From the NCBI RefSeq assembly GCF_030143245.1, contig NZ_JARJNS010000001.1, forward strand, positions 310,001 to 374,000: a stretch of DNA of 64,000 nt. Direction: 5' to 3'. Below are positions 57,271 through 60,682 of this stretch, piece after piece (the stretch's first letter is position 1; each line of letters starts with the position of its first letter). This stretch comes from Rhabdaerophilum sp. SD176. GTDB taxonomy: Bacteria > Pseudomonadota > Alphaproteobacteria > Rhizobiales > Beijerinckiaceae. The notes beneath the pieces were generated by a model that searched no databases, had not been told where the DNA came from, and worked only from the letters and a program-made list of their open reading frames with translations. The position numbers were made by a program, and so were the translations under genes.

Positions 57271-57981
57271 TCAGAGCGATGGCGCGCCGAGCCGGAACCG
57301 GCGCACTTCATTGCTCGAAAGGATGCGGATCTGGTCATGCGGGACCGATTCCGCGAGGCTGATCAGATCCTGGCTGCCGCCGACGCGCGAGACATATTGA
57401 CGGAGCGCGTTGACCTCGCTCGACCCGGCATAGATGCGCTCGCCCTGGGTCCTGCCGCCGGCCGGATCGGCCCGCCACATCCGGGCTGACATGCGGTGGA
57501 CACCGAGTCGTGCCCCTTCCGGAACCACGCGCTTCTTCGCGCCCATGAGCACATAGACACAGGCCGAGGCACAATGGCCGGGCACCACGCCAACCTGTCC
57601 GAAACCGGCCCGGCGACGCGCCTGGCGCTGGGCATCAAGCAGGGTCGGACGGCCGATCACCACGGCGGCGCCAGCATCATGGATCAGCGAGCCGAGCTGC
57701 AGGGCACTCTCGACATTGCCACCGGGCGAATTGAGGAAAACGATCGCATGGAGGCCGGGCCGCTGCAGTTCCTGCCGCAGGAAAGCAGCAAACTTGGCCG
57801 GTGCATCGCGGGTGATCTCGCCCTCGGCAATCACCGCGCGGCGGCATTCGCTGGCATTGCAGGCGCTATCCACCGGGATCGTCGCGAACTCCATCGCAAG
57901 GCCAGGCCCGGCCATCATCAGAGCGAAAAGACCGGCAAGGCCAAGCGGGCCGCGGCCTGGCATCAAAGACAGGAAACGCAT
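57271..57981 (-). CDS. Exported ClpP-fold protein (COG3904-like), copy 1
   Basis: This is a 236-residue protein with a signal peptide (GLAGLFALMMAGPGLA). The ClpP/crotonase-type domain has the oxyanion block FLNSPGGNVESA (82-93), candidate nucleophile Ser139 in GHCASACVYVLMGA, and candidate His162 in LGVHRMS. Spacing between Ser and His is like that in ClpP. Two Cys flank the Ser (CASAC). Such periplasmic ClpP-like proteins have no known ATPase partner. It lies between tRNA-Val and tRNA-Asp. A paralogue lies at 60.7-61.4 kb. Confidence 0.8.
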   Translation of the reverse strand: MRFLSLMPGRGPLGLAGLFALMMAGPGLAMEFATIPVDSACNASECRRAVIAEGEITRDAPAKFAAFLRQELQRPGLHAIVFLNSPGGNVESALQLGSLIHDAGAAVVIGRPTLLDAQRQARRRAGFGQVGVVPGHCASACVYVLMGAKKRVVPEGARLGVHRMSARMWRADPAGGRTQGERIYAGSSEVNALRQYVSRVGGSQDLISLAESVPHDQIRILSSNEVRRFRLGAPSL

Positions 57982-58177
57982 GGATCGAAATCCCCTCACG
58001 CAAACGCACTGTCGGAACAGGACAGCGCGGATATGGTGAAGGAACGAGGTTTCCGAAAGGTTCACGAAAAGGCAAGACCGCGCGACGTCGCAGCGCCGTG
58101 CGGCCGATAGGAAGATCGGTGGGGATATCTGCATGCCGGGCGCGTCTGGCCGGAAGCAATTGAGACAGCGGAGGCTG

Positions 58178-58253
58178 TGGTGGGCGATGAGAGACTCGAA
58201 CTCCCGACATCCTCGGTGTAAACGAGGCGCTCTACCAACTGAGCTAATCGCCC
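58178..58253 (-). tRNA. tRNA-Val (anticodon TAC)
   Basis: A 76-nt cloverleaf with encoded CCA. Acceptor GGGCGAT pairs with ATCGCCC. The anticodon stem CCTCG/CGAGG holds loop TTTACAC with TAC. The T arm has AGTTCGAGTCT and the discriminator is A. Confidence 0.97.
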
Positions 58254-58287
58254 TCGGGGCGTGAAGATGCCGCCGGATCAGCCCGGT

Positions 58288-58317
58288 GGGTAAACACCAT
58301 CCGCCCGGCAATGGCAA
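58288..58317 (-). promoter_or_regulatory. Promoter of tRNA-Val
   Basis: TTGCCA (58312-58317) and TTACCC (58288-58293) are 18 bp apart, with a start expected about 30 bp before the tRNA. Confidence 0.45.
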
Positions 58318-58490
58318 GCGGCCATCCCCCTCGGACGGCCGGCACAAGACCTCCGTCGAGGGCACTTGGCTTCCACCAATGGCGCAGGGCGCACTGGCAC
58401 CGCCTCTGATACAGGTCAAGGCAGCTCCTGCCGGCAGGCGGCAGGATGGCGGTCAGGCCCGGGCAACACGGGCTGGAGGAACCCCGGACG

Positions 58491-59231
58491 ATGCGCATCG
58501 CCCTGCTGGCCGATATCCATGGCAACCGCGAGGCGCTGGAAGCCGTGCTGCGCGCCCTCCCCTCCCACCGGATCGACGGCCTCGCCATCCTCGGCGATGT
58601 GGTCGGCTACGGGCCCGACCCGGCCTTTTGTGTGGAGCGCGTGGCCTCGTTGGTTGAGGCCGGGGCGATGATCGTGCTCGGCAACCACGATGCCGCGATC
58701 GAGGGCGATGCCAGCGACATGAACCGTATTGCCCGCGAGGCCATCGAATGGACGCGGACGCAGCTTGACCCCGGGCATGCCGCGCTGATCCGCACCTGGC
58801 CGGAAACCCGGCGCCTGGGCGATGCGCTCTTTGTGCATGCCAGCGCCCGCGCCCCGCGCGCCTGGGAATACATTACCGGGCCGGGCGAGGCGGAGCGCAG
58901 CCTGCGCGCCACCGATGCCGCGATCACACTGGTGGGGCATGTGCATCAGCCTTGCCTCTGGCGGCTCACGGGCCTCGGCGTGGCGATTGCGCATGAGCCC
59001 CTGCCTGGCGCGGAGATCCCGCTTTCGCGCCATTTTCCCTGGCTCGGCGTGGTCGGCGCGGTCGGCCAGCCGCGCGACGGCCAGACCGCCGCCGGCTACG
59101 CGATCCTCGATCTGAAGCGGCGGACCCTGCTCTTCGGACGCGTCGGCTACGACCACTACACCACTGTGCGGAAACTGCGCGAGTCCGGCCTGCCCGAGCC
59201 GCTGGCCGTCCGCCTCCTCCGGGGGCGATGA
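58491..59231 (+). CDS. Calcineurin-like metallophosphoesterase
   Basis: This is a 246-residue protein with all motifs of the two-metal phosphoesterase fold: DIHGN (8-12), GDVVGYGPDP (35-44), GNHD (64-67) and GHVHQP (149-154). It most resembles the YfcE/MJ0936-like group, which acts on phosphodiesters or on phosphoproteins. A GGAGGA ribosome site lies just upstream of the ATG at 58491. The last codons overlap the kinase start by 4 nt, so both are made together. This suggests, as inference, that it reverses phosphorylation by the kinase or acts on a product in the same pathway. Confidence 0.9.
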   Translation: MRIALLADIHGNREALEAVLRALPSHRIDGLAILGDVVGYGPDPAFCVERVASLVEAGAMIVLGNHDAAIEGDASDMNRIAREAIEWTRTQLDPGHAALIRTWPETRRLGDALFVHASARAPRAWEYITGPGEAERSLRATDAAITLVGHVHQPCLWRLTGLGVAIAHEPLPGAEIPLSRHFPWLGVVGAVGQPRDGQTAAGYAILDLKRRTLLFGRVGYDHYTTVRKLRESGLPEPLAVRLLRGR

Positions 59232-60682
59232 GGGGCGCCATGGGCAGGATGCAGCTGGAAACCGGCTCGACAATCGAGGGCTTCCTGATCGGCCGGAAGA
59301 TCCATCAGGGCGGCATGGCCGAGATCTGGGAGGTCACCCATCCGGACCATGCGATCCCGCTGGTGATGAAGATCCCGCTGATCCTCGACGGCGATGATCC
59401 CACCATGATCGTCGGCTTCGAGCAGGAGCAGATGATCCTGCCGCGGCTGAGCGGGCCGCATGTGCCCCGCTGCATCGCCCTCGGGGATTTCTCGGCCCAG
59501 CCCTTTATCGTCATGGAGCGCCTTGCCGGCGAGAGCCTGCTGCCGCGCTTCAAGGCCGCGCCCCTGACCGCCTCCGAGGTGCTGGCGACCGGCGCCGCCA
59601 TCGCGAAGGCTCTGGTCAGCCTGCACGGGCAGGATGTCGTCCATCTCGACATCAAGCCATCGAACATCATGTTCCGCCCCACCGGCGAGGCCGTTTTCAT
59701 CGATTTCGGCCTGTCACGCCATCTCCGGTTGCCGGATCTCCTCGCCGAGGAGTTCCGCGTGCCGATGGGCACCGCGCCCTATATCGCCCCGGAGCAGGTG
59801 CTGAAGATCCGCGAGGAGCCCCGGAGCGATCTCTTCGCCCTCGGCGCGATGCTCTATGCGCTGGCCACCGGCGAGCGTCCCTTCGGCAACCCCAAGCACA
59901 CGACGAAGGCCCTGCTGCGCCGGATGTACGAGGCCCCTACCCCGCCCCGCGTGCTGCGGCCCGACATCCCCTCCTGGCTGCAGGAAATCATCCTGCGCTG
60001 CCTCGAGGTGAAGCCGGACCGGCGCTATGCCTCCGCAGCGCAGCTTGCCTTCGAACTGAACCACCCCGAGCATGTGACGCTGACCGACCGCGCCACGCGC
60101 GAGAAGACGCATTGGCTCCGCAACCTGATGTCCGGCCGGCTGCTGCCGCCGCAGGCCCCGCCGCTGAGCCGCCTGGGGGCCTATCGGCACGCCTCGCAGG
60201 CGCCCATTCTGATGGCCGCGGTCGATCTCTCGCCCGAAGGCGAACCGCTGGCCGGGATCCTGCGGGAAACCGTCTCGCGCCTGCTGGTCACCGCACCGGA
60301 ATCCCGCCTCGCCTGCGTCAACGTGCTGCGCACGGCACGGATCGGCCTCGACACGCTGGTCGACGATGACGGCACCTCACTGCATGTCCGCCGGTTGGTC
60401 GAACTCAAACACTGGGCCGCCGATATGCGCCTGCCGCCGGAGCGCCTGACCTTCCATGTGCTGGAACATTCCGATCCCGCACAGGCCATGCTGGATTTCG
60501 CGCGCAACAATGCGGTCGACCATATGATCGTCGGCGCGCGCGGCTCGGGGGGCGTCCGGCGCTACATGGGCTCGGTCTCGACCAGCCTCGTCGCCGAGGC
60601 GCCCTGCTCGGTGACCGTGGTGCGCAACCGCCTTGCCCTGCCGGGAGAGAGCGACACCAGGTTCACCGAAGCCGGGGCGTGA
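59228..60682 (+). CDS. Serine/threonine protein kinase fused to a universal stress protein domain
   Basis: This is a 484-residue protein. The Hanks-type kinase domain (about 15-285) has a Gly loop HQGGMAEIWEV, Lys48 in LVMKIPL, the catalytic loop HLDIKPSN (139-146), DFG at 159-161 and APEQ (187-190). The C-terminal part (about 315-475) is a UspA-type domain ending VDHMIVGARGSGGVRR and SVSTSLVAEAPCSVTVVR, with the ATP-binding Gly pattern G-x2-G-x9-[ST]. No membrane segment is seen, so it is cytoplasmic. It is translationally coupled (ATGA) to the upstream phosphoesterase. The start could be the ATG at 59240. Confidence 0.92.
   Translation: MRGAMGRMQLETGSTIEGFLIGRKIHQGGMAEIWEVTHPDHAIPLVMKIPLILDGDDPTMIVGFEQEQMILPRLSGPHVPRCIALGDFSAQPFIVMERLAGESLLPRFKAAPLTASEVLATGAAIAKALVSLHGQDVVHLDIKPSNIMFRPTGEAVFIDFGLSRHLRLPDLLAEEFRVPMGTAPYIAPEQVLKIREEPRSDLFALGAMLYALATGERPFGNPKHTTKALLRRMYEAPTPPRVLRPDIPSWLQEIILRCLEVKPDRRYASAAQLAFELNHPEHVTLTDRATREKTHWLRNLMSGRLLPPQAPPLSRLGAYRHASQAPILMAAVDLSPEGEPLAGILRETVSRLLVTAPESRLACVNVLRTARIGLDTLVDDDGTSLHVRRLVELKHWAADMRLPPERLTFHVLEHSDPAQAMLDFARNNAVDHMIVGARGSGGVRRYMGSVSTSLVAEAPCSVTVVRNRLALPGESDTRFTEAGA

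Follow-up and report, generated by a model that had tools for sequence, protein, structure and literature searches.

In the window—the whole stretch of 64,000 nucleotides from Rhabdaerophilum sp. SD176 that we analysed—a gene for a calcineurin-like metallophosphoesterase (MPE) lies directly upstream of one for a Hanks-type Ser/Thr kinase fused to a universal stress protein (Usp) domain. This adjacency was kept in 43 of the 45 genomes in which we found the kinase-Usp gene, in all 80 named loci compared, and in the four plasmid records that carry the kinase, which recurrence supports the functional pairing put forward in the original prediction. An adjacency so conserved across distant bacteria suggests that the MPE may keep the kinase in check. 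The explanation that we prefer, and to which we give slightly less than an even chance, is that of a self-contained module of a kinase and an opposing hydrolase, in which the MPE would reverse the phosphorylation carried out by the kinase, and the kinase would be tolerated only in the company of the MPE.

The gene pair and its products

Table 1. Features of the MPE/kinase-Usp locus and its flanks (positions in the window).
Feature	Position	Strand	Details
MPE, calcineurin-like metallophosphoesterase	58491..59231	+	246 aa; first gene of the pair; Pfam Metallophos 6.6e-14
Hanks-type kinase-Usp fusion	59240..60682	+	480 aa counted from the conserved start
Kinase-Usp, alternative in-frame ATG	59228	+	ORF 59228-60682, 484 aa
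Kinase domain	59291..60034	+	Pkinase 3.1e-30; residues 22-269 of the 484-aa form
C-terminal Usp domain	60212..60625	+	PF00582 4.9e-14; residues 329-466 of the 484-aa form
Glycine loop of the Usp domain, shortened: GARGSGGVRRYMGSV	within 60212..60625	+	
Gene junction	59229..59242	+	MPE stop TGA 59229-59231; kinase ATG 59240-59242
tRNA-Val gene	58178-58253	-	upstream of the pair
ORF, 296 aa	60696-61586	-	downstream of the pair
ORF	57271-58419	-	other flank of the pair

Since the pair is bounded by the tRNA-Val gene and by an ORF of the opposite strand, the MPE and the kinase-Usp seem to stand as a separate unit (Table 1); a scan for sigma-70-like promoters, of a kind that proves little, returned none at the pair. 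The two minus-strand ORFs between which the pair lies are paralogues (31% identity over 220 columns, 1e-22); both contain a CASAC stretch and, by eye, look exported.

The original prediction had the two genes overlapping by 4 nt. Such an overlap does exist between the MPE stop and an ATG at 59228, and this arrangement is common to the window and the four nearest species (five of five); the conserved start of the kinase, however, is probably 59240, and the overlap probably an artefact of start-site choice. In the alignment the residue matching this second ATG is where the kinases of more distant relatives start (MGRMQ...), and directly before that ATG stands a Shine-Dalgarno-like GAGGGG that overlaps the MPE stop. 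When the spacing was counted from the start nearest the conserved position, a value of -4 nt was present in only 2 of 77 named pairs—three of the 80 named loci, whose MPE is partial, being omitted here and from the mirror-tree comparison—and any ATG or GTG at -4 or -1 in 8 of the 77. We accordingly rejected the overlap as a conserved coupling signal, although the tight spacing itself is kept, 53 of the 77 pairs falling between -11 and +4 nt.

The first product was rightly described as a metallophosphoesterase with all its metal motifs: in addition to the Pfam match, the metal-site residues D8, H10, D36, N65, H116, H150, and H152 are all present and unchanged in all 110 distinct relatives, with N65, H66, and D67 invariant in the alignment. 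The AlphaFold model (mean pLDDT 97) combines these bimetal-site residues with the calcineurin-like fold. The closest solved structure is 3rqz (Z 34.8, rmsd 2.0, 233 aligned residues; sequence match 1.2e-39), the closest characterised fold relative is SapH (Z 25.6), and farther off come the phosphatase domain of Pnkp (Z 17.4) along with PP5 and calcineurin (Z about 16). The PPP protein phosphatases carry the signature GDxVDRG, which motif was found in none of the 110 MPEs of the paired type, and the match to the ApaH NCBIfam model came to 30.9 bits against a cut-off of 176. Because that closest characterised relative is an Ap4A hydrolase, a protein-phosphatase activity of the MPE is something that we infer.

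A Ser/Thr kinase with a C-terminal Usp domain was likewise confirmed, as both profiles match within one ORF, the protein being judged soluble by eye and from the predicted model. In the window kinase Lys44, Glu63, Asp137, Asn142, and Asp155 are present (numbered from the 59240 start); Lys44, Asp137, and Asp155 are kept in 113 of 113 kinases, as expected of Hanks-type enzymes. The kinase part of the model is PknB-like (Z 28.6), in a comparison whose listed matches were dominated by kinases and which scarcely probed the Usp domain. The family is non-RD throughout: HRD was never encountered among the 113 kinases, of which 99 read HLD—the window kinase included—5 HFD, and 1 HHD, while 8 missed the search pattern, one of the latter being HLD and the other seven HHD with Ser in place of the metal-binding Asn. 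These seven (L124-L129 and L132) belong to one genus of large genomes, and their activity may be altered by the substitution. In three same-genus genomes (L010, L013, and L014) the stretch of the kinase from the catalytic Asn to the Asp of the DFG is lengthened by an insert, which reaches about 40 residues at most and is in part repeated in two of the kinases. In 111 of 112 kinases the activation loop contains PDL[LM]xx[EQ], or the Glu variant of this motif (PDLLAEE in the window), and in 80 of 111 no Ser or Thr stands between the PDL[LM] motif and the P+1 Gly-Thr/Ser, which scarcity would disfavour a control by activation-loop phosphorylation.

The sensing of nucleotides through the Usp domain, which the original prediction had also proposed, was weakened. 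The domain belongs to the Usp family by its profile match, but the canonical ATP-binding motif of that family, G-x2-G-x9-G[S/T], was found in none of the 113 kinase-Usp proteins; 60 of the 113 have G-x2-G-x8-G[S/T] instead. As a rule the glycine loop is short by one residue, and in the model this loop (residues 436-443) is predicted with low confidence. Four kinases of one genus (L133, L134, L135, and L137), from small genomes of 1.7-2.1 Mb, have no glycine loop at all, and there the pair is kept with the metal-site residues of the MPE intact. Two other Usps of the Rhabdaerophilum genome, when translated, also lack the canonical motif and are thus a poor control.

Within that genome (3.96 Mb, 99% complete) the window kinase is the sole match to PF00069, next to four Usp matches and nine Metallophos matches, each count including the window protein. 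The profile search of the genome found no PP2C of the PF13672 type; one SpoIIE-type PP2C is encoded elsewhere. Neither was there an ApaH above the cut-off, the sole match to that model being the window MPE itself, at 31 bits. On another contig some 2.8 kb separate a second MPE gene from a stand-alone Usp gene (L194, 3462-4226 and 6984-7520), which proximity we take as coincidence.

Conservation of the pair and its exceptions

A survey of the neighbourhoods of kinase-Usp genes established that the pair is far from unique to one genome. In the relatives panel (61 genomes; cut-offs of E<1e-100 for the kinase-Usp and E<1e-85 for the MPE) the kinase-Usp occurred in 22 genomes and the MPE in 24: 22 had both, none the kinase alone, 2 the MPE alone (G023 and G025), and 37 neither, with both genes present or both absent in 59 of the 61; the four same-genus genomes without the kinase-Usp were also without the MPE. 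The class panel (289 genomes; E<1e-60 for the kinase, E<1e-30 for the MPE) had the kinase in 7 genomes and the MPE in 8, all seven kinases lying directly after an MPE and the eighth MPE (G296) falling outside the paired clade. In the phylum panel (398 genomes; E<1e-140 for a full-length kinase, E<1e-75 for a close MPE) 23 genomes had the kinase, 23 the MPE, and 22 the two adjacent by coordinates. Single misses are possible in both of these larger panels because only four or five kinase candidates were scored per genome. Fisher tests of co-occurrence gave p = 2.6e-13 for the class panel and p = 6.8e-34 for the phylum panel, values that serve only as a guide among related genomes. With no genome counted twice, adjacency was found in 21 of 22 relatives, 5 of 5 new genomes of the class panel, and 17 of 18 new ones of the phylum panel; the other two of the 45 are a contig break (G018, where the MPE runs up against a contig end and the kinase starts 44 bases into a different contig) and one genome without the MPE. 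Eight more distant kinase loci (L023-L030), returned by the search of the relatives panel, had no MPE within the flanks examined.

Among named relatives, the best 80 of 560—a sample thereby biased to close relatives and rich in metagenome bins—all had the MPE upstream on the same strand; 57 were Alphaproteobacteria, 18 Betaproteobacteria, 4 Pseudomonadota of unstated class, and 1 Nitrospirota. In one of the four plasmid records the adjacency ran across the record start, and the plasmid-record label of close relatives reads "bifunctional serine/threonine-protein kinase/universal stress protein." No third conserved gene emerged among the neighbour families at the 80 named loci, each of which families, the pair and the antisense ORFs over it excluded, occurred in 15 loci at most; the remaining frequent cluster consisted of antisense ORFs over the pair (38 of 38 members). 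Since the ORF picking took some of those antisense ORFs, with the kinase being recovered at 51 of the 80 loci and the MPE cluster at 42, a weaker linkage could escape. The kinase and MPE distances correlate (r = 0.84, 77 pairs, mirror trees), which correlation shared species history alone could explain.

In a tree of 53 MPEs, 33 paired and 3 solitary ones form a single clade (support 99/98), in which the three without a kinase are nested at two separate places. Five long-branch or very distant MPEs were omitted from this final tree; when they were included, a distant long-branch MPE of the Rhabdaerophilum genome (L163) fell inside the paired group, and five further MPEs of that genome, without a profile match, entered no tree. 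The MPEs without an adjoining kinase are those of G521—where 4 of 45 kinase candidates were scored—G023, and G025. From their nesting, and if the pairing is ancestral in the clade, two losses of the kinase that spared the MPE are probable, though the numbers are small. The persistence of the MPE in those three genomes would mean that the enzyme either has a value independent of the kinase or is decaying there. Two solitary MPEs of the paired clade (L197, 4343-5098; L198, 3888-4628) belong to two genera of the same family, and the ORF beside each reads, by eye, as the large subunit of exodeoxyribonuclease VII. The reverse loss, with the MPE gone and the kinase kept, was observed only once, in G584 (L145), and that kinase is damaged: it aligns only from position 32 of the family profile and position 47 of Pkinase onward, its N-terminus with the glycine loop is lost, and a gene with an integrase core follows. 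Across the three panels no intact kinase-Usp was found without an MPE.

The phylum search also returned proteins, with open frames of about 500-670 codons, that carry an MPE domain at the C-terminus; of these we aligned 28 (L138-L143, L147, L152, L153, and L168-L187), mostly of one family. Their N-terminal domain of about 280 aa has a K, a D, an N, and a second D invariant in all 28, and the intervals between them (93, 5, and 13 residues) equal those in the window kinase. That domain gave no Pfam match above the cut-off in the five proteins scanned; a nine-sequence profile of it found nothing among PDB sequences up to E 10, and profile comparison showed no significant similarity to the kinases (E 0.87; 0.23 local). 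The attached MPEs form a separate clade in the MPE tree. A Rosetta-stone link between MPE and kinase through these proteins was not upheld; as a lead only, they are possibly a new, atypical kinase-MPE fusion.

The role of the hydrolase beside the kinase

Under the module that we prefer, the kinase would probably be active without phosphorylation of its activation loop, the enzyme being non-RD and the loop usually free of Ser and Thr; the Usp domain would serve regulation or assembly rather than as a canonical ATP sensor; and the MPE, made beside the kinase at a set ratio, would remove the phosphates that the kinase places on its targets or on itself. Because of that removal, the kinase would be tolerated only where the MPE is present, a dependence with which the pattern of losses and the tight adjacency fit. 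The loss argument itself comprises two losses in one direction and a single damaged case in the other, with the paired state assumed to be ancestral. That the substrate would be a phosphoprotein and that the two genes would be co-transcribed we infer. Against the module stand the SpoIIE-type PP2C elsewhere in the genome, an MPE lacking the PPP signature and having SapH as its nearest characterised fold relative, the seven kinases with Ser for the metal-binding Asn, and the three genomes in which the MPE occurs alone.

The reading that must be weighed most closely against this one is that the Usp domain or the kinase senses a nucleotide, for instance Ap4A or a cyclic dinucleotide, which the MPE hydrolyses, the two acting as receiver and eraser. 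SapH is an asymmetric Ap4A hydrolase/phosphodiesterase, for which reason we retain this possibility while regarding it as unlikely; the genome, moreover, contains no other match to the ApaH model, and the Usp domain of KdpD binds c-di-AMP (PMC8214093). The canonical motif is nevertheless missing from all 113 Usp domains, even if a nucleotide could still bind elsewhere; and were the MPE there only to clear a Usp ligand, the loss of the Usp loop should relax it, whereas the partners of the four loopless kinases keep every metal-site residue. With the active sites thus kept and the Usp loop non-canonical, we favour an opposition at the level of phosphoproteins over the clearance of a Usp ligand.

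Less probable still, and improbable in our estimation, is that both enzymes act in one pathway, for instance on a phosphorylated small molecule or on RNA, under a common regulation without mutual dependence. Many phosphoesters serve as substrates of MPE families, solitary MPEs do persist, and the phosphatase domain of Pnkp is among the fold relatives; yet simple co-regulation predicts neither the absence of an intact kinase without an MPE nor an order and spacing so tightly kept. We give very little credence to the idea that the kinase forms an anti-phage or selfish unit in which the MPE would be the safeguard. Kinase models of PADLOC do match (PD-T4-6, 3.4e-54) and the genomic context of the pair differs between genera, but the matches listed are to the kinase domain or lie near it, which any Hanks kinase would produce, and the MPE has none; the window neighbours are tRNA genes and an ORF that by eye reads as Lon, and the kinase tree places the Alphaproteobacteria and the Betaproteobacteria each on one side of a branch, which separation counts against a selfish unit. 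Finally, chance neighbours held together only by a short evolutionary time have next to no probability: some of the surveyed loci do come from close relatives, but the surveys of named loci and panels already contradict that notion, with an adjacency that spans Alpha- and Betaproteobacteria plus one Nitrospirota record while the other neighbours differ.

We also advance, with more reserve and as a doubtful though possible extension of the preferred module, that the paired MPEs would constitute a separate, dedicated family of protein phosphatases outside PP2C and PPP, having evolved as partners obligatory for the kinase-Usp, and that in genomes such as this one the module would be the entire Hanks-kinase equipment. 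If so, enzymes annotated only as "metallophosphoesterase family protein" would gain a testable function, and the two-gene system would be a simple model of bacterial Ser/Thr signalling—a sparse one, present in 7 of the 289 genomes of the class panel, that can still be a cell's only Hanks kinase system. The asymmetry of the losses leads to the prediction that the kinase would be harmful or unregulated without the MPE.

Comparison with known systems

While kinase-Usp fusions and kinase/PP2C operons are known, the pairing with an MPE is apparently undescribed: our searches found no report of it in the open-licence literature, going by titles and the openings of abstracts. Among MPEs, that of the window is alike over its full length to 3rqz, a metallophosphoesterase of Sphaerobacter thermophilus whose entry title names no activity. 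With the streptococcal SapH/Spr1479 (3qfm, 3qfn) it has the fold in common over 224 residues, but at 25% identity, and the Ap4A hydrolysis belongs to the PDB title of SapH. The PPP phosphatases (PP5 and calcineurin; PrpA and PrpB of E. coli) resemble it in the broad fold and differ by the signature that the paired-type MPEs lack.

Bacterial fusions of a Ser/Thr kinase to a Usp domain, like that in the window, were described in 2005 by Krupa and Srinivasan (PMC1262709); that text contains neither "metallophosph-" nor "phosphoesterase," whereas the window fusion has an MPE partner. In bacteria it is common for a kinase and its dedicated phosphatase to be encoded in one operon (PMC6213207, a text that has no word beginning with "metallophosph-"). 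The PrkC-PrpC and PknB-PstP pairs described there correspond to the window pair in that a Hanks kinase stands beside a dedicated phosphate-removing enzyme; in those systems, however, the partner is a PP2C, whereas the neighbour of the window kinase is a calcineurin-like MPE, and the kinase is a non-RD enzyme with a Usp domain.
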